Assembly (NCBI RefSeq): GCF_900110815.1
Contig: NZ_FOIT01000001.1
Coordinates: forward strand, 541,910-605,909
DNA: 64,000 nt
DNA from: Aliicoccus persicus
Lineage (GTDB): Bacteria; Bacillota; Bacilli; Staphylococcales; Salinicoccaceae
Direction of reading: 5' to 3'
Positions 7,311 through 25,050 of this stretch are shown here, piece by piece. Position numbers and translations under genes: made by a program. Position 1 is the stretch's first letter, and every line of letters starts with the position of its first letter. The notes under the pieces were generated by a model. It worked only from the letters and a program-made list of their open reading frames with translations, had not been told where the DNA came from and did not search any database.

Positions 7311-7595
7311 TTATTTTGCTTCAGCGTATACAGAAACACGTTTCTTATCTTTACCAACACGTTCAAACTTAACGACACCATCAATTTTAGCAAATAATGT
7401 GTCATCTCCACCACGGCCGACGTTCTCACCTGCATGGATTTTAGTACCGCGTTGACGGTAAAGAATCGAACCACCTGTAACAAACTGACCATCTTGGCGC
7501 TTCGCACCTAAGCGTTTAGATTCTGAGTCACGACCGTTTCTCGTAGAACCTACACCTTTTTTCGATGCAAACAATTGTAAGTTTAATTTTAACAT
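7311..7595 (-). CDS. rpmA: 50S ribosomal protein L27 with cleavable N-terminus
   Basis: L27 reaches the peptidyl-transferase centre with its N-terminal tail. In Staphylococcus and relatives it is made with a short extension that the protease Prp removes after LQLFA; that motif is present ([14 protein letters not shown]). The start is the ATG at 7595, six bases after GAGGTG. An ATG nine bases upstream overlaps that ribosome site. The ribosome site lies inside the last codons of prp, so the two are tightly coupled. 94 residues. Confidence 0.97.
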
Positions 7596-7596
7596 G

Positions 7597-7917
7597 TCAT
7601 TCACCTCTTCGTTTTGAAATACTAATATACTCGCTATACTCTTCTTCTACTGTTTTTAAAGACACTTCTAAGCTTCTCATCAATAATTGAACATCATTTG
7701 TCTCAGCGATGTTTTGTACATCCATAAGACCATCCTTGATCTCAACTTCGGGCTTAGTGTTCGTTAATGCGAAGATACTGTTAAAAATGCCATATGCAAT
7801 TGCTGACGCTCCGGCACATACGATATCTTTACCATGCACATCAAAATCTGCGTGACCTTCCATATGGAAAGCGACATAATGCGCGTTCTCATTAACTGTA
7901 AATGTCGCACGTATCAT
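7597..7917 (-). CDS. prp: ribosomal-processing cysteine protease Prp
   Basis: Cuts the N-terminal extension off L27. 106 residues with the catalytic pair His22 (EGHAD) and Cys34 (IVCAGASA), as known for the family (YsxB). It sits between rplU and rpmA, as in all relatives, and shares one base with the end of rplU. Its substrate is the next gene, which carries the expected LQLFA site. Confidence 0.96.
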
Positions 7918-8225
7918 TAAGCATCAATCTTATCGATTGTTAACTTCGTGTATGGCTGACGATGACCTTGTTTACGGCTGTAGTTTTTACGACGTTTAAA
8001 TTTAATGATCGTAACTTTTTTACCTTTACCTTGTTTCTCAACTTTAGCAGTTACTGTTGCACCCTCAACGAGTGGCGCACCAACTTTAACCGTATCTCCA
8101 CCGACCATTAATACACGGTCAAATGTGAATGTGTCACCTGCTTCAACGTCCAGCTTTTCAACGTAAATTGTTTGGCCTTCTTCAACTTTAAGTTGTTTTC
8201 CGCCTGTTTCAATAATTGCAAACAT
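7917..8225 (-). CDS. rplU: 50S ribosomal protein L21
   Basis: Structural protein of the large subunit. The start is the ATG at 8225 ([13 protein letters not shown]), preceded by CAGGAGGTG at good spacing. The open frame runs further upstream, but that part is leader RNA. 102 residues, with the C-terminal [20 protein letters not shown]-binding block. First gene of rplU-prp-rpmA; regulated by the leader described at 8226-8325. Confidence 0.98.
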
Positions 8226-8325
8226 ACTTGCACCTCCTGGATAATAAGACTCGCCATCGAACGGTGGGATAACCACTTGTAAACCGTTGTATGAGCGGTT
8301 GATGTTTACAAATTTTCATCAACTC
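8226..8325 (-). ncRNA. L21 leader RNA (ribosomal protein autoregulation)
   Basis: The untranslated leader between the promoter and rplU can form hairpins (for example CCACTTGTAAACCG/CGGTTTACAAGTGG around 8273-8290, facing the ACGGTGGGAT element). It resembles the L21 leader motif described for Firmicutes. L21 is expected to bind here to repress its own operon. The match is from memory of the family; a covariance search would decide. Confidence 0.6.
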
Positions 8326-8330
8326 ATAGA

Positions 8331-8359
8331 ATTATATATAAATAAACCTCTCATGTCAA
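8331..8359 (-). promoter_or_regulatory. consensus sigma-A promoter of rplU operon
   Basis: Perfect -35 TTGACA (8354-8359), 17-bp spacer, perfect -10 TATAAT (8331-8336) on the minus strand. The -35 begins directly after the mreD stop codon. Transcription would start near 8324. Confidence 0.9.
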
Positions 8360-8893
8360 TCAGTTTGTTGGGTTTTTATCAGAAACTTGTAACCCTTCTT
8401 TTAACTTAGATAATCTCAAAACGATAAAGAAAATACCGGTAAAGAATATCGCGTTGACCAACAGACTCGGTGTCGCACGAAGCGCAAGATAATCAAACAC
8501 TGGCATCGTTGTAATCGCAAGCACTCTATATATCACATAGACGTAAAGATCATATAAGAATGATAGAACGAGCACGACAAACGCGAGTGCGATAAAATCC
8601 TTATAAAACACGCGGAATGCAGCGTGCATGAAGACGACAGAAGCAATGAGTCCAAATGTATGTATGCCATAAATCGATCCGATATAAATATCCAACATGA
8701 GTCCGGATACACCCGCAATAAAAATTCCCATCCGTTGAGAAATATAAATAGAAACGAGCAATACAAAAATAAGCAATACTCTCGGTACAAAGTAAACATC
8801 TAAACCAAACATATGTACAGGACTAAAATTAGCAAACGACATATCTATATACATTGCGATAAAAGCAACAACAAACATCGCGATCGCTTTCAT
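8360..8893 (-). CDS. mreD: rod-shape determining protein MreD
   Basis: Polytopic membrane protein of the MreCD pair that helps position peptidoglycan synthesis. 177 residues, five to six predicted membrane helices, no soluble domain. It overlaps the end of mreC by one base, so translation is coupled. Assignment rests on hydrophobic profile, length and position after mreC; the family is weakly conserved in sequence. Confidence 0.9.
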   Translation of the reverse strand: MKAIAMFVVAFIAMYIDMSFANFSPVHMFGLDVYFVPRVLLIFVLLVSIYISQRMGIFIAGVSGLMLDIYIGSIYGIHTFGLIASVVFMHAAFRVFYKDFIALAFVVLVLSFLYDLYVYVIYRVLAITTMPVFDYLALRATPSLLVNAIFFTGIFFIVLRLSKLKEGLQVSDKNPTN

Positions 8894-9744
8894 TATTCTT
8901 CACCTGTCGAAGAAGGATCACGTTTTAATACAAATACTAAATCCACATGATGGAAATCCGCTGCGAGCGTCACATAAGCACGTTCACTTAAGCCGTACTC
9001 GTCACTTTGCACACGGTCAACCTCACCGATGATCAATCCCTCAGGTAAATTACCTGCCAAGCCACTTGAATATACAGCATCCCCGACTTCAACATTACTT
9101 CTATTTTGTATGTTCTCAATAATTAAATGATTCTCTACCGGATCATATTCCAAGACGTTTCCATAAACGGTTTCATCAGCCGTTTCAATTTCTACCGACA
9201 AACGTGATTGAGAATTATTCGTCGTAATAATTTCAACAAACGAAGAATTTGAGTTGGCGCGTTCAACAATACCGATTAAACCTTCTGTCGTCATCACTGC
9301 CATACCCTCAGAAACACCGTCACGTGAACCTTTATCTATCGTAAAGTTATCTTGCCATTGATCCGGCGCACGAGAAATAATACGAGAAGGAATCGTCTCG
9401 TAGCTCCATTTAGAACTAACATCTAGCGCTTCACGTAACTCTTCGTTCTCCTCTTGCAGCCTCGCGTTATCTGCTTCCATCTGCGGTGTCATTTCAATTT
9501 GCTGACGTAACCGTTCATTCTCACTAATCGATGAAAAGCTGAGACGAATCGTATTAAAAATATTGCCAACAAGTTGGAAAGGAGCGTTGATTATACTTTG
9601 AGAAGTTGCAGTAACCTCACCTGTAAACTGTTCAGCAGAAGTTGTTGAGTCGCGATCATTCATAGAAAAGCCAATCAACACGATGAGCACAATGACAGAA
9701 AACAATAGTGCCAGCAATCTGTTGCGGTTGATCAATCGATTCAT
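8893..9744 (-). CDS. mreC: cell shape-determining protein MreC
   Basis: Extracellular scaffold of cell-wall synthesis. 283 residues: cytoplasmic tail, one membrane helix (about residues 10-28), a coiled coil (about 70-105, QIEMTPQMEADNARLQEE) and the two-barrel beta domain ending near 275. The motif GLIGIVERAN is typical. The neighbour upstream in relatives is radC with a small gene between; here about 13 kb of accessory DNA lies in between. Confidence 0.95.
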   Translation of the reverse strand: MNRLINRNRLLALLFSVIVLIVLIGFSMNDRDSTTSAEQFTGEVTATSQSIINAPFQLVGNIFNTIRLSFSSISENERLRQQIEMTPQMEADNARLQEENEELREALDVSSKWSYETIPSRIISRAPDQWQDNFTIDKGSRDGVSEGMAVMTTEGLIGIVERANSNSSFVEIITTNNSQSRLSVEIETADETVYGNVLEYDPVENHLIIENIQNRSNVEVGDAVYSSGLAGNLPEGLIIGEVDRVQSDEYGLSERAYVTLAADFHHVDLVFVLKRDPSSTGEE

Positions 9745-9852: not shown

Positions 9853-10253
9853 ACTTAGGTATTGCTGATCCAGTTAAGAAATATATGAATCCTTGGGGGA
9901 CTCTTGAAGTATCTTAGGAATACTTTTTTATATTAGTTATAAATAGAGTATAAATGATATTTTAATAAATTGCAAGTAATTTCTTAATAATTTTCTAATC
10001 ATATTTTCATTTTGGAATTGAGAGAAAAAATGAGAGACATCGTGATGTCTCTCAATAGATAAGAAGTTAATATGATATCCAGAACTTTAGTTCTGCCGGA
10101 AGGTCGTATTCTATATTTAAATATAAGAATGGTTTCTTTCCATGACCTTATTATGTTTACAGTCATTATAATAGCCCAGTTCAGAATAATATTCAAGTGG
10201 TAATCTATTTTGTAAACGAATTGTAATATTGCAGGTGTATTTTTTGGGTATAT
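9853..10253. other. AT-rich region without intact gene
   Basis: No convincing gene. It holds a second minus-strand terminator (10025-10054). The short minus-strand open frames read through here have no ribosome site and no recognisable family. This is probably decayed DNA at the edge of the accessory region. Confidence 0.5.
10025..10054 (-). terminator. intrinsic terminator
   Basis: An 11-bp perfect stem TGAGAGACATC/GATGTCTCTCA (10031-10054, 2-nt loop) followed on the minus strand by a T run. It lies downstream of the gene remnant at 10254-10304 and may be the original terminator of that transcript. Confidence 0.75.
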
Positions 10254-10304
10254 TCACCAGTCTGAACTGTAGTAAAGATCATACCGGTTGTAGTCTATAA
10301 ACTT
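10254..10304 (-). pseudogene. C-terminal scrap of the radC-adjacent gene
   Basis: The minus strand reads KFIDYNRYDLYYSSDW and then a stop. The intact gene at 23179-23541 ends KFIDYNRYDLFYSSDW plus stop. Only the last 17 codons are present; the rest is replaced by an IS3 end. This is a second, diverged copy of that gene and marks the left boundary of the accessory region. Confidence 0.8.
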
Positions 10305-10460
10305 TGGTATGTCAACAGTATTCTAGACAGTTTTTATAGAGTGCTTCCTCATACTCCTTCGGTGTCATTTAACCGAGTGCACTATGTGGTCTAATATTGT
10401 TATACCAATTCACATAATCAAATAGTTCAATTTTTAACTGTTGTAGAGATATAAAATGAT
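10305..10460 (-). mobile_element. IS3-family transposase 3' remnant
   Basis: The minus strand encodes the C-terminal end of an IS150/IS3-type transposase (YNNIRPHSALG then a premature stop, then MTPKEYEEALYKN). Its terminal sequence CTGTCTAG...TACTG(T/C)TGACATACCAA is shared with the remnant at 14863-14960. It is cut at its 5' side by IS431. Non-functional. Confidence 0.75.
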
Positions 10461-11250
10461 GGTTCTGTTGCAAAGTTGAATTTATAGTATAATTTTAACA
10501 AAAAGGAGTCTTCTGTATGAACTATTTCAGATATAAACAATTTAACAAGGATGTTATCACTGCAGCCGTTGGCTACTATCTAAGATATGCATTGAGTTAT
10601 CGTGATATATCTGAAATATTAAGTGAACGTGGTGTAAACGTTCATCATTCAACGGTCTACCGTTGGGTTCAAGAATATGCCCCAATTTTGTATCAAATTT
10701 GGAAGAAAAAGCATAAAAAAGCTTATTACAAATGGCGTATTGATGAGACGTACATCAAAATAAAAGGAAAATGGAGCTATTTATATCGTGCCATTGATGC
10801 AGAGGGACATACATTAGATATTTGGTTGCGTAAGCAACGAGATAATCATTCAGCATATGCGTTTATCAAACGTCTCATTAAACAATTTGGTAAACCTCAA
10901 AAGGTAATTACAGATCAGGCACCTTCAACGAAGGTAGCAATGGCTAAAGTAATTAAAGCTTTTAAACTTAAACCTGACTGTCATTGTACATCGAAATATC
11001 TGAATAACCTCATTGAGCAAGATCACCGTCATATTAAAGTAAGAAAGACAAGATATCAAAGTATCAATACAGCAAAGAATACTTTAAAAGGTATTGAATG
11101 TATTTACGCTCTATATAAAAAGAACCGCAGGTCTCTTCAGATCTACGGATTTTCGCCATGCCACGAAATTAGCATCATGCTAGCAAATTAAGCGAACACT
11201 GACATGATAAATTAGTGGTTAGCTATATTTTTTTACTTTGCAACAGAACC
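10461..11250 (+). mobile_element. IS431/IS257-type insertion sequence (IS6 family)
   Basis: 790 bp, bounded by the inverted repeats GGTTCTGTTGCAAAGTT (10461-) and ACTTTGCAACAGAACC (-11250). One transposase gene. The flanks (AAAATGAT on the left, GATTTTCT on the right) do not form an 8-bp target duplication, so this copy marks a past recombination or deletion rather than a simple insertion. It truncates an IS3 remnant on one side and a HAD gene on the other. Confidence 0.95.
10517..11191 (+). CDS. IS6-family (IS431) transposase
   Basis: 224-residue DDE transposase, full length for IS431. An N-terminal helix-turn-helix (about residues 20-55) is followed by the DDE core: aspartate in WRIDETYIKI, aspartate in VITDQAPS and glutamate in NLIEQDHR. 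A good ribosome site (AAAAGGAG) precedes the ATG. It appears intact, so it can supply replicative transposition of IS431-flanked DNA. Confidence 0.96.
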   Translation: MNYFRYKQFNKDVITAAVGYYLRYALSYRDISEILSERGVNVHHSTVYRWVQEYAPILYQIWKKKHKKAYYKWRIDETYIKIKGKWSYLYRAIDAEGHTLDIWLRKQRDNHSAYAFIKRLIKQFGKPQKVITDQAPSTKVAMAKVIKAFKLKPDCHCTSKYLNNLIEQDHRHIKVRKTRYQSINTAKNTLKGIECIYALYKKNRRSLQIYGFSPCHEISIMLAN

Positions 11251-11627: not shown

Positions 11628-11689
11628 ACAAGCCCCCCCCCTTTTTTTAATCAAAATAACATAATTGCTTTATTCCAATTGCTTTATTG

Positions 11690-11834
11690 ACGTTGAGCCT
11701 CGGAACCCTTAACAATCCCAAAACTTGTCGAATGGTCGGTTTAATAGCTCACGCTATGCCGACATTCGTCTGCAAGTTTAGTTAAGGGTTCTTCTCAACA
11801 TCAATAAATTTTCTCGGCATAAATGCGTGGTCTA
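11690..11834 (-). other. ssoA-type single-strand origin from a rolling-circle plasmid
   Basis: The minus strand carries the recombination-site-B-like block TTTATGCCGAGAAAATT (complement of 11807-11823). It also has a large imperfect hairpin with outer arms AACCCTTAAC (11704-11713)/GTTAAGGGTT (11781-11790) and the CS-6 motif TAGCGT (complement of 11751-11756) near the apex. These are the hallmarks of ssoA, the lagging-strand origin of staphylococcal plasmids such as the pT181/pE194 group. No rep gene is nearby. The rest of 11835-12000 contains only a 15-codon lysine/asparagine-rich reading frame after an AGGAAG site. Confidence 0.75.
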
Positions 11835-11999
11835 CTTCTTTTTATTCTTCTTATTTTTTTCATTTTGATTTTCTTCCATTCAAATCTTCCTTTCTAATAA
11901 TTGTTCTCTTTTTATTGTAACGCAAATATTATTTTGATTTACCAGGGGGTGGTATTTATTAAACGAGAGAACTGATAATTCAGAATTTAATTCAGGATA

Positions 12000-12028
12000 T
12001 TGCCAGACAGCATGGTAAATGGTATATT
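12000..12028 (+). promoter_or_regulatory. promoter of the PTS/ketopantoate-reductase operon
   Basis: TTGCCA (12000-12005), 17-bp spacer, TATATT (12023-12028), about 39 bases before the first start codon. The operator at 12031-12048 lies immediately downstream, over the expected transcription start. Confidence 0.6.
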
Positions 12029-12030
12029 TA

Positions 12031-12048
12031 TTGTGAACTAAATCACAA
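12031..12048 (+). promoter_or_regulatory. Rex/ArcR (Crp-Fnr)-like operator
   Basis: The 18-mer TTGTGAACTAAATCACAA has perfect palindromic arms TTGTGA/TCACAA. This resembles both the Rex site (TTGTGA-A-W4-T-TCACAA, with two centre mismatches) and the Crp/Fnr-type TGTGA-N6-TCACA box used by staphylococcal ArcR. Placed on the start site, it should act as a repressor site (Rex-like). Which protein binds is inference. Confidence 0.65.
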
Positions 12049-12066
12049 ATAGAAGGTGGGAATTAC

Positions 12067-13128
12067 ATGGATGGAGCTAAAGAAAGAATAACACCAAAAA
12101 AATTCTTGTTTAATATACTCAATGGGGTGGCCCTTGCGATTGTTGTTGGTCTAATTCCAAATGCGATCCTCGGAGGGCTGTTTGGGTACCTTGCTCAATA
12201 CGGAGATATTTTTACTACGCTTCAAAATGTGGTCGTAGGTATTCAATTTACTATTCCTGTCCTGACCGGTGTATTGATTGCAATGCAGTTTGGTATGACT
12301 CCATTACAAACAGTCGTCGTGGGAACGGCTGCTTTCGTAGGATCAGGTGCTGCTGAATTCACAGATTCCGGCTGGATTATAACAGGAATTGGGGATCTCA
12401 TTAACACGATGATTACTTCAGCCATTGCAGTTGGAATCATGTTAATCATCAAAGATAAACTCGGGAGTCTCAGTATCATTCTGCTCCCCATTATTGGCGG
12501 GGGGATTGCGGGATTAGCTGGTATATTACTTTTACCATACGTAAACACAATTACCCTTGGACTCGGGCTACTGATTAATAGTATTACAACTACACAGCCT
12601 ATAATTATGTCTATTCTTATATCAGTATTGTTTTCAATAGTAATTATCTCACCTGTCTCTACTGTGGCAATTGCATACGCAATTGGCATCTCGGGGGTTG
12701 CAGCGGGTTCCGCAGCAATTGGAGTCGCTTCAGCTGCAATTATGTTGTTCATTGGCACGTATAAAGTAAATAAAATAGGGGTGCCCATCGCAGTTATACT
12801 CGGGGCGATGAAGATGATGATGCCGAACATGATCCGCTATCCAATCCTACTGCTACCAGTAAGTTTAACAGCAGCAGTGTCGGGGCTTGTCTCTGGTTTA
12901 CTTAACATCCAGGGCACCCCTGCATCAGCGGGATTCGGACTTGTGGGTTTTGTAGGTCCAATTCAGTCCATAGCTTTGTTAGATGGCGGCATTGGGAGTG
13001 TCATATTTAAAGTAATCGTTGCATACGTTATTGTCCCTTTAATTTCAGCACTCCTATTCCACTATCTCTTCGTCAAAATACTTAAGATATATAAGCCAAC
13101 TATTTTCTATTTTGAAGCAGAATCATAA
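12067..13128 (+). CDS. PTS EIIC-like membrane transporter (PTS_EIIC_2 family)
   Basis: A 353-residue integral membrane protein with about nine to ten hydrophobic segments, glycine-rich throughout. Segments such as LPIIGGGIAGLAGILLLPYV and GFGLVGFVGPIQSIALLDGG fit the PTS_EIIC_2 family, a group of stand-alone EIIC-like proteins. No EIIA or EIIB gene is nearby, so phosphotransfer coupling is unproven and it may act as a facilitator. The ribosome site GAAGGTGG precedes the ATG. It is followed after 20 bases by a ketopantoate-reductase-like gene, and both sit behind a Rex/ArcR-like operator. The substrate is unknown. Confidence 0.75.
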   Translation: MDGAKERITPKKFLFNILNGVALAIVVGLIPNAILGGLFGYLAQYGDIFTTLQNVVVGIQFTIPVLTGVLIAMQFGMTPLQTVVVGTAAFVGSGAAEFTDSGWIITGIGDLINTMITSAIAVGIMLIIKDKLGSLSIILLPIIGGGIAGLAGILLLPYVNTITLGLGLLINSITTTQPIIMSILISVLFSIVIISPVSTVAIAYAIGISGVAAGSAAIGVASAAIMLFIGTYKVNKIGVPIAVILGAMKMMMPNMIRYPILLLPVSLTAAVSGLVSGLLNIQGTPASAGFGLVGFVGPIQSIALLDGGIGSVIFKVIVAYVIVPLISALLFHYLFVKILKIYKPTIFYFEAES

Positions 13129-13148
13129 TATGGAAGGATGTATAGTAA

Positions 13149-14078
13149 ATGAAAATTGCAGTAGCAGGCGCAGGTGCACTAGGCGGTAGAGTAGGGATAC
13201 AGCTTCACGAATCAGGCGTTGATGTAACACTCATAGATAAATGGGAGGAACATGTCAACGCCATTAACGAAAAAGGAATGGAAGTACACACAGAGGATAA
13301 AGTATATCAAGTTCCTGTAAAAGCAAAATTATTGGAAGATATAGATGAATCATATGATTTAATCATTATTTTAACTAAAGCCATGTATGCAGAAGACATG
13401 CTGCAAGCGTTGTATGAAAAAAATTCAATACACGCAGAAACAGCAATCCTCACTATGATGAACGGATTAGGCCATGGGGACCGTCTAGCCAAGTATGTGT
13501 CCAAGGATCGCATATACTTGGCAGTGACGATGTGGACCGCTGGACTCAAAGGGCCGGGACAGATTGTATTAACAGGATCAGGTGGCATCCAGATTCAAAG
13601 AGCAGATGGCATTGCGTCAAAAATGACAGAGGAAATCAACGATATATTCAACACAGCTAACCTAAACTCTATTATAAGTAGGGATGTTCAACACTCTATT
13701 TGGGCTAAAGCAACCTTAAATAGTGTCTTAAATCCTTTATGTTCAATTTTGGATAAAAGGATTGGGGAATTTGCCGCTTACGGTGCCGTAATTGAAATGA
13801 TCACCCCAATAATTGAAGAAATTATAGAAGTTGCAGGTGCTCGTGGTGTAAATTTAGATTTTGATGCTTCATTAGAAAAAATCAAGGCGGCATTCCCTGA
13901 CAGTGCGGCGGGACTGCATTATCCATCGATGCATCAAGACTTGGCAAAAGGTGTTCAGACAGAAGTAGATTATCTAAATGGTAAAATCTCTGAATATGGA
14001 AAAGAATATGGGATCAAAACCCCGAATAACGATATGATTACTCATCTAATTCATCAATTGGAAATGAAAAATCATTAA
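13149..14078 (+). CDS. ketopantoate reductase (ApbA/PanE) family protein
   Basis: NADPH-dependent 2-oxoacid reductase fold, 309 residues. The N-terminal Rossmann motif is AGAGALGG (residues 6-13), the interdomain block is ILTMMNGLGH, and the catalytic lysine region is WAKATLNSVLNPL. Family members make pantoate for CoA but many paralogues reduce other 2-keto acids. It is paired with an EIIC-like transporter on mobile DNA, so a catabolic or redox role is as likely as pantothenate synthesis. Base composition and lack of panB/panC neighbours support acquisition. Confidence 0.8.
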   Translation: MKIAVAGAGALGGRVGIQLHESGVDVTLIDKWEEHVNAINEKGMEVHTEDKVYQVPVKAKLLEDIDESYDLIIILTKAMYAEDMLQALYEKNSIHAETAILTMMNGLGHGDRLAKYVSKDRIYLAVTMWTAGLKGPGQIVLTGSGGIQIQRADGIASKMTEEINDIFNTANLNSIISRDVQHSIWAKATLNSVLNPLCSILDKRIGEFAAYGAVIEMITPIIEEIIEVAGARGVNLDFDASLEKIKAAFPDSAAGLHYPSMHQDLAKGVQTEVDYLNGKISEYGKEYGIKTPNNDMITHLIHQLEMKNH

Positions 14079-14105
14079 AATGGATTGGAAATTACAAGAT
14101 TTCAT

Positions 14106-14844
14106 TTGTCAAAATAAGCTAGACAGTTGCTTTTCACCCATGTAACTCAAAAAGACTTCCAATGGTGTACGATAGTTCAATGATTTTCTCGGGATATGGT
14201 TTCTCCTGGCGCAACCGATGAGATAAAAGCTTGGTCGACCGTGTTGAAATCCATATCTTTAGGCAGGCCATCCCTTCTGAGCAATCCATTTGAATGTTCG
14301 TTCAGTCCCCGCTGTGATGGTGTGCCCGGATCGGCAAAATAGATGGCCCAATCATGCTGGTTGCTCAGTGCCCGCCAGTTGTAAAATTCCTTGCCACAAT
14401 CGAAGGTGATGGACTTGAATAGGTTTCTCGGCACCCAGTGGCACCATGTGTTGATGGCGGTTTCGATATCTTTGGCCGTCCGACCTTCAGGCTTCAAGGT
14501 GATGATGGCTTTTGATAGCCGTTCGACCAGCGTGATGACGGCACTTTTATGACGCACACCAACGATAGTATCGCCTTCTAGGTGACCGAATTCTTCATCG
14601 AAGGTGGGATAGTCAGCTGCTCTTTCAGAGATATTTCGCCTGAAGGTCTGACGGGCACGGCCAATCCGTTTCGCAATATGAGAAATCGGTGTGTCGTGAT
14701 GGAAATAGGCTTCTATGATTACCAGTTCATCCGTGGTAATATGGGTATGGGTCATGCATGATCACTCCTATGATTTCTTTGGTCGGAAAACCATTTTGAG
14801 TGTATCATGCGTGACCTTTTTATGTGTCTAGCTTAATTTTACAA
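14106..14844 (-). mobile_element. IS30-family element, internally deleted
   Basis: The ends match as inverted repeats: TTGTCAAAATAAGCTAGACA (14106-14125) on the left and the complement TTGTAAAATTAAGCTAGACA on the right (14825-14844). At 739 bp it is well short of the roughly 1.1 kb usual for the group. It contains one broken transposase gene. Confidence 0.85.
14177..14755 (-). pseudogene. IS30-family transposase, deleted and frameshifted
   Basis: 192 codons. The N-terminal helix-turn-helix part runs directly from RIGRARQTFRRN into ERAADYPTFDEEFGHLEGD, skipping about 100 residues normally found between. The catalytic core is recognisable (GHLEGDTIVG, TFDCGKEF, GTPSQRGLNEHSNGLLR). Near 14205 the frame shifts: the usual ending RNHIPRKSLNYRTPLEVF is present in another frame down to about 14130. 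Inactive. Confidence 0.85.
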
Positions 14845-14862
14845 TCGGCGATTGGTATGTCA

Positions 14863-14960
14863 GCAGTAAACTAGACAGAATTTATCTGATGAATAAATTC
14901 TGTTCTGTCTGCTTTAGAAATCGTTTCTGCCACTGTATTATCATATGGATTACATTTTCT
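14863..14960 (-). mobile_element. IS3-family remnant
   Basis: The minus strand reads SRKCNPYDNTVAETISKA then DRTEFIHQIN and stops. This matches the SRKGNPYDNA...EFI block just before the last catalytic glutamate of IS150-type transposases. It joins directly to the same terminal sequence as the remnant at 10305-10460, so it is an internal deletion derivative. It lies three bases after the stop of the neighbouring gene. Confidence 0.7.
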
Positions 14961-14962
14961 AC

Positions 14963-15799
14963 TTAAGTAATAATTGTCCATTTAACGCCAAGATAGTTAG
15001 CGATCCATTCTATTGAAAAAATTTGCTTCTCTTTGGGTGAAAGTTCCAATTCATTTACTGCGCTTATATGTTTTTTATAGAAACTATAACTTAAGTTATC
15101 ATATTTTTCTAAAAAAACTTCCATCGATTTATAAGTTTCATTTAAATTAGTTTCTGTTTCAATGCGCTCTAAATGCTTCTTGAGAGTTTTACTGTTATAT
15201 TCTTGGGGTTCACTACATCCTACATACATTGTATTATCTCTGTATGCAACATGATTATGACCAACTAATGTTGAAACTTCTGCTATAGAAGATTTCTCTA
15301 CAACTTCTCTTTGAGTTGCTTGTTCATGTAATTCATCTAAATCACTTGCAGCTGGAGACGCATATATTATCTTAGCAGGAGTATTATCATTTATAAGACT
15401 GTTATTTAAACCTAACAAAGTATTTAATTGTTCTTGATACAAAGTATATCTGTAATATGAATTTTGAAAGATATAATATTGTTTTGATTGTGATGTAGTT
15501 AAATACTCGGGTTTTTTAAATTGAATAAATAGATTCGCACTATAAGTATTAGGAATATTATTGATATTATTGTGAAACTGATTACAAGTAACACATCGGG
15601 TATTGGTTGCTGTAATCGTTCCAGTTCCATTCATACTATTTATAAATTCTGGTAGTACTACGTGTTTTGCATCATAGCCTAAATCATGTTCTTCTCTTTG
15701 GCTTGGTATAGTAACTCTTGGATCTACACCGTATGAAGTAACTAATTCTGTATTAAATAGTTGTTCGTACTGTCTCTCACTATAATTAACTCTTACCAT
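14963..15799 (-). CDS. uncharacterised protein, possible nuclease partner of the upstream ATPase
   Basis: 278 residues, family not recognised. The N-terminal third has a pattern seen in PD-(D/E)xK-type nucleases: acidic residues at 12 and 18, then LGYDA with Asp43, then a hydrophobic strand ending in FIQFKK (Gln93-x-Lys95). Between them lies a CVTC pair (Cys69, Cys72) followed by His76, possibly metal-binding. The C-terminal 80 residues are helical. It follows the AAA ATPase gene by about 94 bases in the same direction, so they are probably one operon. The 3' end abuts an IS3 remnant and could be slightly truncated. The nuclease call is inference from a weak pattern. Confidence 0.55.
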   Translation of the reverse strand: MVRVNYSERQYEQLFNTELVTSYGVDPRVTIPSQREEHDLGYDAKHVVLPEFINSMNGTGTITATNTRCVTCNQFHNNINNIPNTYSANLFIQFKKPEYLTTSQSKQYYIFQNSYYRYTLYQEQLNTLLGLNNSLINDNTPAKIIYASPAASDLDELHEQATQREVVEKSSIAEVSTLVGHNHVAYRDNTMYVGCSEPQEYNSKTLKKHLERIETETNLNETYKSMEVFLEKYDNLSYSFYKKHISAVNELELSPKEKQIFSIEWIANYLGVKWTIIT

Positions 15800-15893
15800 C
15801 TCTTAATCCCCTTTAAGTTTATATTTAATATCGGTCAATTGATCTCTTAATAAAATTTTAAATCGGCTATATAAACTTAGTCTCATTGCACAT

Positions 15894-18071
15894 TTACCCC
15901 CAGTATACTTTAAAGTGACTTTCAAATTTAATAGCTTCAAAAACTTTCTTAAATACTTCTAATAGCTCTTCTTTGGATTTTCCACTTATATCTACATCTG
16001 TTTCATAACCTATATGAGAATTTACATGTAAACTTTTAATTAAAGATACAGCTAATATTTTGCCTTCAAATTCTCCAATATTTCTCTCTATATCTCTTGG
16101 TTGTTCACTCCCATATACAAACCTATTAAAAGCTTCTAAGATTCTTCTCATATTATTCCACATAAATGTGGTTTTATCATTCTCATATGCAAACTTCAAT
16201 TCCTCCCACAGTTCATGATACAAAGGCTTCAAATCATCCTTGGGCTCAGTAATTTTAACGAATTCCGTTTTCTCATTCATTTTAATTAGTCTTAAATAAT
16301 TTTGTTTGTCGTATTTCCTTTTATTTGGACACATTTGAAGATAAAAATGATTGTTATGAGTAAGCACGAATAACTGAGGGTGATTTTGTTGTTCATATAA
16401 CTTTTGTAAAGCACTTATCATCAAATATTGAACATTATCATCATTACTCGTCATTGGATCATCAAAAATAATAATTTTTCCCTTGTCATATTCCGTGTTC
16501 TGATCAACATCTTCAAGTTTGTTCAAAAAATACAAAAATGCTAGAATGTTTTTTTCTCCTTCACTTAACTCTGCTACAGAGCGCAAAGAACCATCTATTC
16601 CTTTAACTCTATATTGTCCCCTTTGCTCTCCTTCTTCTTCAACATGCTCTAAAGTAAAGGTGCAATTACCTAAACCATTGAGTAGCTTATTTATATTTTC
16701 TGTAGCAATAATATTACTTTTAGAGTTGTTGACCAGTTCAGATTTTTCATTTTTTAACTTGTTTAAGTTCTCTTGTAAGTCATTTAAATATGTTTTAATT
16801 TCGATTTTTTTTCCTTTACTCACGTTTAGATGATCATGAAGTTCTTTATAGTCACTACTTTCAATATATAAATTCACAATATGCCAGCGGATTTTATCAC
16901 GTGCTTCTTTCTTTCTTTGCTCTATATTTTGAGAGAGTTTTATGTTTTCTTCTACTATTTGATTATATTTATTCAATATTTCTTGTCCGTTATTTTGCGC
17001 AGATACTTCTATTTCTTTTGACTCTTCAAAAATATTCTGAAGCTTATACTTTAAAGCTCTTTTTAGTTTTCTTAAAAACTCATTTGTATTATTTTTATAA
17101 TCAAAAATCTCAGCATTCAATTCATTTATCTCTTCCTCGTATGCTAAGTAAAAATCATTTTTGTTTATTTTCTCTACGTCGTTAATTCTCTCGATATGAA
17201 CGTCAATTTCATTTATTTTTTCGCGCATATCTTCTTCGTGCTTCTTAAAACTTTCCGAAAAATAGTCATCTAACTCTGACCATCGTAATTCAGAGATAGT
17301 GTTGCCACAGAAAGCACAACTCTCTTCATGTAATAAGTTTCCAATAGAATCCCTATGAGAGTGAACCTTCATACCTTCTCGTGCAAAACTTTGTTTGCGG
17401 TGATCTCTTTCTAACTCATTAATAATCTTTGTAGGCTTTATAGAGGTAGTTAATAAACCATTTATTTCTTCTTGTATCTCTTCCCAATTAATTACAGGAA
17501 GTTTTAGATTTACTTCTATATCTTTCCTGTCTTCTTTTATTGTCTTTTCATATTTTCTTATTTCATCTTTTGAAAGTTTCGATACTTTACTCATATCTTC
17601 TTTAAAAGACTGTTTATTATATGTAGGAGAAGCAACTTGAGGATTACTACGGTTTTTAATTTCACTTGCGCATTTTGTAAAATACTCTTCAATGTTTTCT
17701 TTAATTTTCAAATAATCTTGGAGTGAATCTCTGTGTCTAGAATAAGTGTTTTCTTCATCGTTAACTGGCTCTCTTAAATCTTTACTCAACTCTTTAATAA
17801 TGCTATTTAACTCTTCAATTTTAGTTTGTACTTCTTTGTTTTTCTCACCAAGTGCAATAGCATCTAACCTTTCATTTTCTCCAAAAACTCTCTTATACCC
17901 ATTAAACAAGTGTATATCGTACTCAGTAGAATGATTATTCTTTATTGCTTCAGTAATTGAAGACTTTCCTGTTCCATTTTTTCCATATACAAAATTTTTT
18001 TGTTTCAATCCTTCTAATTTCATTTCATGAAATCTATCTGAATAAAAGGATAAATCCAGTTCGTTAATCAT
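15894..18071 (-). CDS. AAA_13-type ATPase with zinc hook, RloC/PrrC-like
   Basis: 725 residues built like SMC/Rad50-type ATPases. Walker A is GKNGTGKSS (30-38), followed by long coiled coils (about 75-245 and 265-465) around a zinc-hook CAFC pair (Cys252, Cys255). The ABC signature is LSEGEKN (502-508), Walker B is IIIFDDP (533-539) and the H-loop is LTHN (570-573). The region after the ATPase core contains R642-x3-E646 (RRILEAF) and His682/His686 (LHVNSH). That is similar to the Arg-Glu-His arrangement of the anticodon nuclease PrrC and of RloC, which also has a zinc hook. Such proteins are phage-defence or abortive-infection effectors. No restriction genes are present; the partner is the 278-residue gene downstream. 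A ribosome site of GAGGGGGG and a 16-bp palindrome precede the start. Confidence 0.8.
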   Translation of the reverse strand: MINELDLSFYSDRFHEMKLEGLKQKNFVYGKNGTGKSSITEAIKNNHSTEYDIHLFNGYKRVFGENERLDAIALGEKNKEVQTKIEELNSIIKELSKDLREPVNDEENTYSRHRDSLQDYLKIKENIEEYFTKCASEIKNRSNPQVASPTYNKQSFKEDMSKVSKLSKDEIRKYEKTIKEDRKDIEVNLKLPVINWEEIQEEINGLLTTSIKPTKIINELERDHRKQSFAREGMKVHSHRDSIGNLLHEESCAFCGNTISELRWSELDDYFSESFKKHEEDMREKINEIDVHIERINDVEKINKNDFYLAYEEEINELNAEIFDYKNNTNEFLRKLKRALKYKLQNIFEESKEIEVSAQNNGQEILNKYNQIVEENIKLSQNIEQRKKEARDKIRWHIVNLYIESSDYKELHDHLNVSKGKKIEIKTYLNDLQENLNKLKNEKSELVNNSKSNIIATENINKLLNGLGNCTFTLEHVEEEGEQRGQYRVKGIDGSLRSVAELSEGEKNILAFLYFLNKLEDVDQNTEYDKGKIIIFDDPMTSNDDNVQYLMISALQKLYEQQNHPQLFVLTHNNHFYLQMCPNKRKYDKQNYLRLIKMNEKTEFVKITEPKDDLKPLYHELWEELKFAYENDKTTFMWNNMRRILEAFNRFVYGSEQPRDIERNIGEFEGKILAVSLIKSLHVNSHIGYETDVDISGKSKEELLEVFKKVFEAIKFESHFKVYWG

Positions 18072-18091
18072 GTTAAATCCCCCCTCTAAAA

Positions 18092-18107
18092 GTATAGTTT
18101 ACTATAC
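18092..18107. promoter_or_regulatory. 16-bp palindrome, candidate operator of the ATPase operon
   Basis: GTATAGT-TT-ACTATAC, perfect 7-bp arms, ending about 20 bases before the ATPase start and just upstream of its ribosome site. Its position over the promoter/leader suggests repression or autoregulation. No regulator gene is adjacent. Confidence 0.45.
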
Positions 18108-18289
18108 ATCTCTCAATATATTAATGTATTGCTCCAATCTGTTTGCGTTTTGCCAATAACGATCTGATGTGTCCTCCTCGGAACTGTATAATGGAACAAG
18201 ACTATAAAGTAAATATAAAATGTTAATTTAAGGCAGACCTTAATCAAGCAATCGAATATCAAATCCGTGAGATCACTTCAGTATATTTG
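18108..18289. other. junction region upstream of the ATPase
   Basis: No gene seen. It holds the upstream side of the ATPase promoter and runs into degraded IS3 sequence. There is no clean IS end. Confidence 0.4.
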
Positions 18290-20276: not shown

Positions 20277-20306
20277 TGTCTATTTACGGTAGACCCTAAA
20301 TAGACA
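20277..20306. repeat. inverted repeat upstream of the resolvase, possible res subsite
   Basis: TGTCTATTTA and TAAATAGACA form perfect 10-bp arms around a 10-bp spacer, 79 bases before the resolvase start. Serine resolvases of the Tn552/Bin type act at paired inverted sites just upstream of their own gene. A second GGGTGTAAATTAAGTG-like stretch follows at about 20350. Confidence 0.5.
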
Positions 20307-20384
20307 TTATATATGTATTGATATGCTTAGCTTTACGCTGTATGATTAGGGTGTAAATTAAGTGTTAGAAAAAAGAATGATTTA

Positions 20385-20852
20385 ATGAAAGTTGCATATG
20401 CTCGTGTTTCTACACTGGATCAGAATCTCAATAGGCAAATTGAAATGTTTAAAAAATTTGGTGCAGAAAAAATATTTACAGAAAAACTTTCAGGAAAGAA
20501 TATATCTGACAGGATTGTTTTTCAAGAAGCTATGAGTTTTATTCGTGAGGGCGATCAATTTATTGTAGAAGCGATTGATCGTTTGGGAAGAAATTATGAT
20601 GAGATTATTCAAACTGTCAATTTCCTCAAACAGAAAAATGTACAGTTGATTATTACCAGTTTACCGATTATGGCTGAAGCGATTGGAAATCCCCTGCTTG
20701 ATAAGTTTATTAAAGATTTAATTGTTCAGATTCTAGCCATGATTGCTGACCAGGAAAGAACAGAATCTAAAAGAAGGCAGGCACAAGGTATAGCAATTGC
20801 AAAACAAAAAAGAGTTTATAAAGGCAGACCTATACTATACTCACCTAACTAG
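20385..20852 (+). pseudogene. serine resolvase, C-terminally truncated
   Basis: Site-specific recombinase of the Tn552/Bin resolvase type. The catalytic domain is intact: [11 protein letters not shown] with Ser9, DRLGRNYDE and the E-helix up to [10 protein letters not shown]. The C-terminal DNA-binding helix-turn-helix (about 35-40 residues) is missing because the frame stops where comC-derived DNA begins. It is expected to be inactive or to bind DNA poorly. Confidence 0.85.
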
Positions 20853-20867
20853 GATACTATGTTTATC

Positions 20868-21181
20868 GGGTCCAAGAAGATAATCAGCAGGTAGTACATC
20901 AAAAAATCATCAAACTGTAATTGAAAAATAACTGGTAATAAGAATAATAAAGCAAGTAGGATCTCACATGCTAAATAAATCACGGGTATCCGTTCCTTAC
21001 AAGAATTACATTTACCTCGCTGATATAAATAACTGATTATCGGTATCAGCTCGAACCAACTCAATTTTCTCTCACAGTTGTTACATTCACTTCTTCGTGT
21101 TAGAATTTTTGAATCATTAGAATGAACAAGCGTATACATAAAGGAAGCAAAAATACTTCCAACTATCCCTAACAAAAACAT
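20868..21181 (-). pseudogene. truncated second copy of comC (prepilin peptidase)
   Basis: The first 102 residues align with the intact gene at 24232-24948 with about 15 differences by my count, including both CxxC pairs (CNNC, CNSC) and the first membrane helices. The frame diverges after YYLLIIFL, where the resolvase junction lies. The similarity extends upstream of the start codon (about 21182-21240). It lacks the second catalytic aspartate and most helices, so it is non-functional. Confidence 0.9.
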
Positions 21182-23551: not shown

Positions 23552-24235
23552 CTATTTGATATAACTCATCTCTTTTAAACTGACAAACTTCCCTGCTCCT
23601 ATAACGATATGATCTAGAAAATCTATTCCAAGAATCTCACTACATTCAATTAAACGTTCTGTCACTTCAATATCTTGTTGAGAGGGCGTAGGATCACCAC
23701 TCGGATGATTATGAACACATACGATAGCAGCAGCACTTCTCTTCACCGCTTCCTTAAATATTTCCCGAGGATGAACGATCGAAGCATTGAGGGAACCAAT
23801 GAACATCGTCTGTTGATGTATCACTTGATTTTTAGTCGAGAGAAACAGAACCACGAAATGCTCTTGTTGATAATATCGCATTTTTTCCATTAAAAAATTT
23901 GAGACATCTTCCGGACTCTTAATATAGTAGTATTCTTCAGAATTGTGCGTATGCATGCGAATCGCTAATTCTACAACTGCTAAAATAGATATCGCTTTTG
24001 CTTCACCAATTCCTTTAATATTCGTAAGCTCTTGGAATGTTATATCTCTAAGATCTCTAATAGACTTCAAGTCTTTAATAATACTATTCGCCAGAGCTAT
24101 ACTTGATTCATTCTTGCTCCCAGTATTTATTAAAATAGCGAGCAGCTCTTTATTCGTAAGATTTTCCGCACCATAAGTTAACAGTCTCTCTCTTGGTTTA
24201 TCTGATGGGTGAAATTCTTTAATCATCAAGGTCAT
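23552..24235 (-). CDS. radC: RadC/JAB-domain protein
   Basis: 227 residues. An N-terminal UPF0758 helical domain with a helix-hairpin-helix (LTNIKGIGEAKAISILA) is followed by a JAMM metalloprotease-like domain with VCVHNHPSGDPTPSQQD. Its biochemical role is unsettled despite the name. The ATG at 24235 overlaps the comC stop (ATGA) and follows GGAGGG at six bases. In relatives it sits immediately upstream of mreC. Confidence 0.95.
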   Translation of the reverse strand: MTLMIKEFHPSDKPRERLLTYGAENLTNKELLAILINTGSKNESSIALANSIIKDLKSIRDLRDITFQELTNIKGIGEAKAISILAVVELAIRMHTHNSEEYYYIKSPEDVSNFLMEKMRYYQQEHFVVLFLSTKNQVIHQQTMFIGSLNASIVHPREIFKEAVKRSAAAIVCVHNHPSGDPTPSQQDIEVTERLIECSEILGIDFLDHIVIGAGKFVSLKEMSYIK

Positions 24236-24948
24236 AGAAGCCCTCCAAAATAAATTTTGTTTAAATCCTCATAAATCAAAAAGGTAAGAATAACAGAAGT
24301 AGCAATAAATGGAGCGAGTGGTACTTTTTCTTGTACCATTTTTTTATAAAGCGAGAGTGTAAGAATAAACAATCCACCAATTATAAAAGTAAATAAAAAA
24401 GTGTAAAGAATGAAATTTACTGGAGTCAATAAGGTTATGACTGAAAAGAGTTTTATATCTCCATATCCAATTGAATTATTGAATAGAAAATAGATGATGT
24501 GAAAAATTGTAATGATTATCAGGTCAACTAATATCTCCACATGAGCGAAACCTGATAGCATCAGTCCACTAACTAATAATATTAATGACATATGATTAGG
24601 AATTGTATATGTTTCATAATCATATAATCCTATGGGTACCAGGAAGATGATTAACAAGTAATACAACAGAAAATCATCAAACTGTAATTGAAATATGACT
24701 GGTACTAAAAATAATAATCCAAGCAGGATCTCACATACCAAGTAAATTAGAGGTATTTGTTCCTTACAAGAATTACATTTACCTCGCTGACATAAATAAC
24801 TTACGATAGGTATTAATTCGAACCATTTCAGTTTTCTCTCACAATGGTTACATTCGCTTCTTCGTGTCAAAATTTTTGAATCTTTAGAGTGAATCAATGT
24901 ATACATAAAAGAAGCAAAAACACTACCAACAATCCCTAATATAACCAT
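24232..24948 (-). CDS. comC: prepilin peptidase / late competence protein ComC
   Basis: Aspartic membrane protease that cleaves and methylates type-IV-pilin-like competence pseudopilins. 238 residues from the ATG at 24948 (GGAAGGGGG ribosome site). It has two CxxC pairs (CNHC, CNSC) and the catalytic aspartates in LVPIGLYDYETYTIPN and GYGDIKLF, within about eight membrane helices. It is co-transcribed with radC. A truncated second copy is at 20868-21181. Confidence 0.93.
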   Translation of the reverse strand: MVILGIVGSVFASFMYTLIHSKDSKILTRRSECNHCERKLKWFELIPIVSYLCQRGKCNSCKEQIPLIYLVCEILLGLLFLVPVIFQLQFDDFLLYYLLIIFLVPIGLYDYETYTIPNHMSLILLVSGLMLSGFAHVEILVDLIIITIFHIIYFLFNNSIGYGDIKLFSVITLLTPVNFILYTFLFTFIIGGLFILTLSLYKKMVQEKVPLAPFIATSVILTFLIYEDLNKIYFGGLL

Positions 24949-25050
24949 AATAGCCCCCTTCCAAAGAGAACTATATTTTATGTCATCGCTAAAGTAAAAA
25001 AGCAAAATTTAAAATATTGTATTTAATTTCAAGCTATTTTAATGAAAAAG

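Follow-up and report, generated by a model that had tools for sequence, protein, structure and literature searches.

Two neighbouring genes in Aliicoccus persicus raise the question of whether an ABC-ATPase and a protein of no recognised family together form a two-gene anti-phage system of a new type, as an earlier note on this DNA had proposed. The genes lie in a stretch of 64,000 nucleotides, referred to here as the window. The ATPase gene (15894..18071, minus strand) encodes 725 aa and is followed by a gene of 278 aa (14963..15799, minus strand), with an intergenic gap of 94 nt between them (15800..15893, minus strand). The two co-oriented ORFs, the zinc hook of the ATPase and the 94-base spacing were confirmed exactly as previously described. 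Since Mammaliicoccus fleurettii carries both ORFs intact and in near-identical form, they were taken to be real genes. The GC content of each is 0.29, compared to 0.38–0.40 in the flanking core. The gap was inspected for a conserved small ORF or a terminator-like site and neither was found; a 27-aa ORF within it was dropped as a gene on account of a 7-nt frameshift in M. fleurettii. The downstream 278-aa gene is probably read from a common transcript with the ATPase gene.

The ATPase was compared with the published definition of RloC, which describes a protein of 658–897 aa in which a coiled-coil insert bearing a CX2C zinc hook divides the ABC ATPase and the C-terminus contains Arg-X3-Glu-X36-52-His, often with Ser before the His (Davidov and Kaufmann 2008, PMC2610378). 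At 725 aa, the window protein falls within this size range. The ABC-ATPase motifs (Walker A, signature, Walker B and linchpin His) were all present: Walker A is GKNGTGKS at residue 30, the signature is LSEGE at residue 502, and Walker B (IIIFDDP) and the THNNH region are conserved in the ATPase alignment. Exactly one CX2C was found, CAFC at residues 252–255 (17307..17318, minus strand), which lies between Walker A and the signature in the insert splitting the ATPase and has both Cys invariant in six aligned sequences. The C-terminal arrangement reads R642-X3-E646-X39-H686 with S685 before the His. The residues of this putative anticodon-nuclease triad are Arg642 (16146..16148), Glu646 (16134..16136) and His686 (16014..16016), all on the minus strand; in seven aligned sequences Arg642 and Glu646 were invariant, as was VNSH, which contains Ser685 and His686.

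Profile searches of both proteins, as the earlier note had suggested, gave an answer for the ATPase and no family model for its neighbour. The ATPase matched Pfam AAA_13 (1e-96, residues 15–712) and, over residues 1–724, the PADLOC model PDLC04897 for PDC-S06 (E 5.6e-227, 754 bits). The PADLOC PrrC model matched the C-terminal half (residues 430–718, 3.7e-14). An AlphaFold model of the C-terminal region was largely helical (pLDDT 66). A fold search with this model returned no match at E<=0.001, and HEPN proteins (AbiV, HepT and archaeal HEPN) recurred among its weak, non-significant matches. Based on the residues and profiles together, the 725-aa gene very probably encodes an RloC anticodon nuclease, the comparison with characterised RloCs being made through their published definition only. 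The closest ATPase relatives outside the shared block described below are only ~34–37% identical. Among the relatives the spacing from Glu to His varies from 25 to 39, so the wider ATPase group is broader than the published RloC spacing; because several relatives have spacings of 25–28, below the published 36–52, this subfamily may act on a different target.

The window ATPase thus shares with RloC its size, the CX2C-split ABC ATPase, the Arg-X3-Glu-X36-52-(Ser)His arrangement and the usual lack of linkage to restriction-modification (R-M) genes. It differs in having a co-oriented downstream gene of an undescribed family. RloC is a named system, listed as anti-phage in a published survey, and the statement that the pair matches nothing known therefore fails for the ATPase. 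The lack of an R-M, HNH or UvrD-like partner had been read as a mismatch, but RloC requires none of these, and linkage to type I or III R-M genes was found in only 8 of 73 orthologues (PMC2610378). The proposed defence role is supported for the ATPase by the PDC-S06 match and by its agreement with the RloC definition. PDC-S06 itself, which the ATPase matches over its full length, is a computational, single-gene candidate with no second gene in its definition, and is listed in a survey of Streptococcus thermophilus.

Other named systems were also considered. PrrC has the same order of triad residues and its PADLOC model fits the C-terminal half of the ATPase, but PrrC is ~341–416 aa long, has no hook and is linked to a type I R-M operon. 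The 725-aa length and the hook do not fit this reading, and no R-M gene was seen in the island. Septu was rejected, there being no PtuB HNH partner and no PADLOC match of any kind to the 278-aa neighbour. For Gabija, which combines the OLD-type nuclease GajA with the helicase GajB, neither protein matched GajA or GajB in PADLOC. Lamassu and PARIS were rejected as their partner genes are absent.

For the 278-aa protein, no credible match was found in Pfam, NCBIfam, PHROGs, PADLOC or PDB, and among the PADLOC models none was obtained to LmuA, PtuB or AriB. A profile of its family searched against solved structures also gave nothing credible. The gene was present in two of 157 genomes of the order, the window's own and one at 100% identity. 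A class sample of 400 genomes added one further, divergent match, and a phylum sample of 399 genomes gave no match beyond the window's own. Viral contigs searched with the protein, its alignment and two relatives contained no relatives, and neither did phage records. More distant members were encoded on a plasmid of Vibrio coralliilyticus (28% identity over 243 aligned positions), on a plasmid of Pseudomonas cerasi and in another Bacilli genome (G244), where the relative extends for 199 aa before an internal stop. The family of this protein is thus rare and undescribed, and its members are also found where there is no RloC gene.

The Vibrio relative stands alone between attC-like repeats, that is, as a solo integron cassette. 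The same plasmid (L003) also carries a gene with a Peptidase_C14 caspase domain; the two genes occupy separate cassettes (7412–8845 for the caspase gene and 10001–10858 for the relative), and a pairing between them was rejected because the attC-like repeats place them in different cassettes. The G244 copy lies near DISARM genes (DrmA, DrmB and a DNA methylase) and directly adjoins two genes that, judged by their sequences, look like McrBC. In this island (L006, 4195–17936), the truncated relative sits between the DISARM-like genes and the McrBC-like pair.

Alignment of four sequences of the family revealed invariant columns that include E8, E12, E37, G41, D43, Q93, K95, Y116, R117, Y146, P149, H181, C195, S196 and P198. 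The order E...GxD...QxK is that of the PD-(D/E)XK nucleases, and the catalytic residues expected of such an enzyme (E37, D43, Q93 and K95) are invariant in all four, which is necessary but not sufficient for the assignment. The motif suggests a nuclease of the PD-(D/E)XK type. It resembles PD-(D/E)XK and Mrr-like nucleases in residue order, with no profile or fold match to them. A single-sequence AlphaFold model, in which such a nuclease would show an alpha-beta-beta-beta-alpha-beta core, had a pLDDT of 42, too low to judge the fold, and was not taken into the fold search.

The surroundings of the two genes were then analysed. They lie in a horizontally shared block (11650..18243) that is 99.6–99.9% identical to M. 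fleurettii when an IS30-type insertion is set aside. In addition to the 278-aa and RloC genes, the block contains a PTS_EIIC_2 family membrane protein gene (12067..13128, plus strand; Pfam PF13303, 2e-100) and a ketopantoate-reductase (PanE/ApbA)-like gene (13149..14078, plus strand), which was identified with Pfam and is identical in M. fleurettii. The IS30-type insertion (14127..14866, minus strand), with a transposase fragment at 14177–14755, splits the block and is absent from the M. fleurettii contig (L002). Between the window and M. fleurettii there is a single nucleotide difference per gene, giving I91T in the ATPase and D155N in the 278-aa protein. The 725-aa and 278-aa genes arrived together on one recently transferred mobile block. 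A third genome (G007), from another genus of the window's family, retains only the N-terminal ~82 residues of the ATPase, the gene being cut by an IS. The accessory stretch in the window is bounded by mreC, which ends at 9744, and radC (23552–24235), both names being read from sequence. The two genes had been described as sitting alone among IS remnants in an accessory region; the accessory setting and an IS30-type element were found, but the genes belong to a larger block with PTS_EIIC-type and panE-like genes.

A res-like sequence, GTCTATTTAGGGTCTACC, was observed at window 20282–20320, a short distance upstream of the gene for a serine resolvase (20385–20852). In three genomes it is found at the RloC block's outer end as well (window 18226–18243, truncated; L002, 7529–7567; L020, ~6090). 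Because this sequence is common to the block end and the region upstream of the resolvase gene, it suggests that the block entered, or underwent recombination, at a resolvase site. In three genomes of the order, M. fleurettii (L002, 252–4445), L018 (3463–5610) and L020 (4065–5633), genes for copper resistance (a copper ATPase, a multicopper oxidase or both) were seen near the RloC gene, as if the two kinds of gene were on a common mobile element. A prepilin-peptidase-like (ComC) gene adjoins radC in full length (24232–25005), and a truncated version of it lies inside the accessory island at 20849–21181; the copies are 84% identical over 398 nt, indicating a partial duplication.

Whether the pairing is conserved was addressed by a survey of homologues. 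The pair turned up in no more than two genomes, which carry near-identical copies of a single block, the sample being limited by the rarity of the 278-aa family. In 72,556 plasmid records, relatives of the ATPase were present in 230 and a relative of the 278-aa protein in one, with no such ATPase near the latter. The ATPase relatives are either solitary or have other genes as neighbours, in many cases R-M genes. Those on Lactobacillaceae plasmids include L007, beside type I R-M genes, as well as L008 and L009. An order-level relative (L019, 5686–16563) has two type III DNA methylase (mod) genes interleaved with a pair of RloC-type genes, one of which is disrupted by a stop, and in another genome of the order (L018) the ATPase relative follows a copper ATPase gene. 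Viral contigs L021 and L022 also hold ATPase relatives, that of L021 beside type III R-M genes. On L022 (3917–7209), the RloC-type gene is frame-disrupted and is followed by an NA37 gene (37-kD nucleoid-associated protein family). None of the ATPase relatives examined (L007, L008, L009, L018, L019, L021 and L022) has a relative of the 278-aa protein beside it. As neither family's relatives elsewhere adjoin the other, the pairing is a feature of one transferred block and is not conserved beyond it. The earlier note had stated that homologues never occurring side by side would speak against a new two-gene type, and this is what was found, the transferred block itself excepted.

The locus is therefore best described as a stand-alone RloC abortive-infection gene next to an independent putative nuclease gene of a rare family, a reading that is considered likely. 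Characterised RloCs of G. kaustophilus and A. baylyi provide the model: the nuclease is gated by the ATPase, becomes active in response to linear DNA, cleaves the anticodon loops of tRNAs and stops translation, the targets in A. baylyi being tRNA-Glu and tRNA-Gln (PMC2610378, PMC3874168). The activity, trigger and tRNA target of the window RloC are, as a best expectation, extrapolated from these two enzymes. The ABC-ATPase head and zinc-hook coiled coil would sense broken or linear DNA, for example phage-degraded DNA, and by homology phage-induced DNA breakage would be the expected trigger. Sensing would switch on a putative C-terminal HEPN-type RNase of the 725-aa protein, which would cut the anticodon loops of a few tRNAs so that translation halts and the infection is aborted. 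The 278-aa protein would act independently, most likely as a PD-(D/E)XK-like nuclease restricting foreign DNA. One or more HsdM-type genes are present elsewhere in the host genome, outside the island, and a link of RloC with an R-M enzyme in trans is therefore conceivable.

If the two proteins did cooperate, the 278-aa nuclease could cut invading DNA and the resulting ends could trigger the adjacent RloC tRNase, giving restriction followed by abortion. Such a two-tier arrangement would fit the shared orientation of the genes, the 94-nt gap in which no terminator-like site was found, their intact co-transfer into two species, the activation of RloC by linear DNA (PMC3874168) and the invariant E...GxD...QxK of the 278-aa family. 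It is nevertheless unlikely, because the pairing was seen on a single block only, in two near-identical copies, and the ATPase relatives occur without the partner and the partner relatives without the ATPase. A local functional link between the two genes is possible, as both move together intact. The 278-aa protein could alternatively be an immunity or silencing partner that holds RloC off in the manner of a toxin-antitoxin pair. Anticodon nucleases have to be held in check, a neighbouring R-M enzyme keeps PrrC silent (PMC2610378), and the gene order is that of a toxin and then a small partner. However, RloC carries a switch of its own and shows activity by itself (PMC3874168), solo ATPase genes persist in other genomes, and the 278-aa family has solo members including the integron cassette, making this very unlikely.

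The assignment of the ATPase itself was also weighed against another AAA_13 defence type (Septu/PtuA-, Lamassu LmuB- or PARIS AriA-like) with the 278-aa protein as effector. The weak PADLOC matches to LmuB (6e-14) and AriA (8e-6), and, from a profile search of the PDB, a weak match to ATPase residues of AriA (E 0.001), point in this direction. Against them, the matches to PDC-S06 (full length, 5.6e-227) and to the PrrC model extend over the C-terminal RNase region, the R-E-H triad is complete, and the 278-aa protein matches no LmuA, PtuB or AriB model; this alternative is disfavoured and given very little weight. A similarly slight probability attaches to the block being a decaying passenger whose genes are irrelevant to the host. 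There are IS insertions around and inside the block, and the G007 ATPase was cut by an IS after ~82 residues, but in the window both frames are intact with their catalytic and hook residues, and each differs by one nucleotide between two species.

RloC is already known as a defence enzyme; what is new here is a further RloC member and the undescribed family of its neighbour, and a two-gene type is not supported. In a literature search, no experimental work on RloC-like tRNA-cutting defence was found for Staphylococcus-related bacteria, and the present locus adds an intact, recently mobile RloC for this group. It also brings to light a rare, unnamed protein family found in a defence island, on a plasmid and in an integron cassette. 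Should the two proteins after all cooperate, the pair would show how a DNA-cutting enzyme couples with a DNA-end-sensing tRNase.
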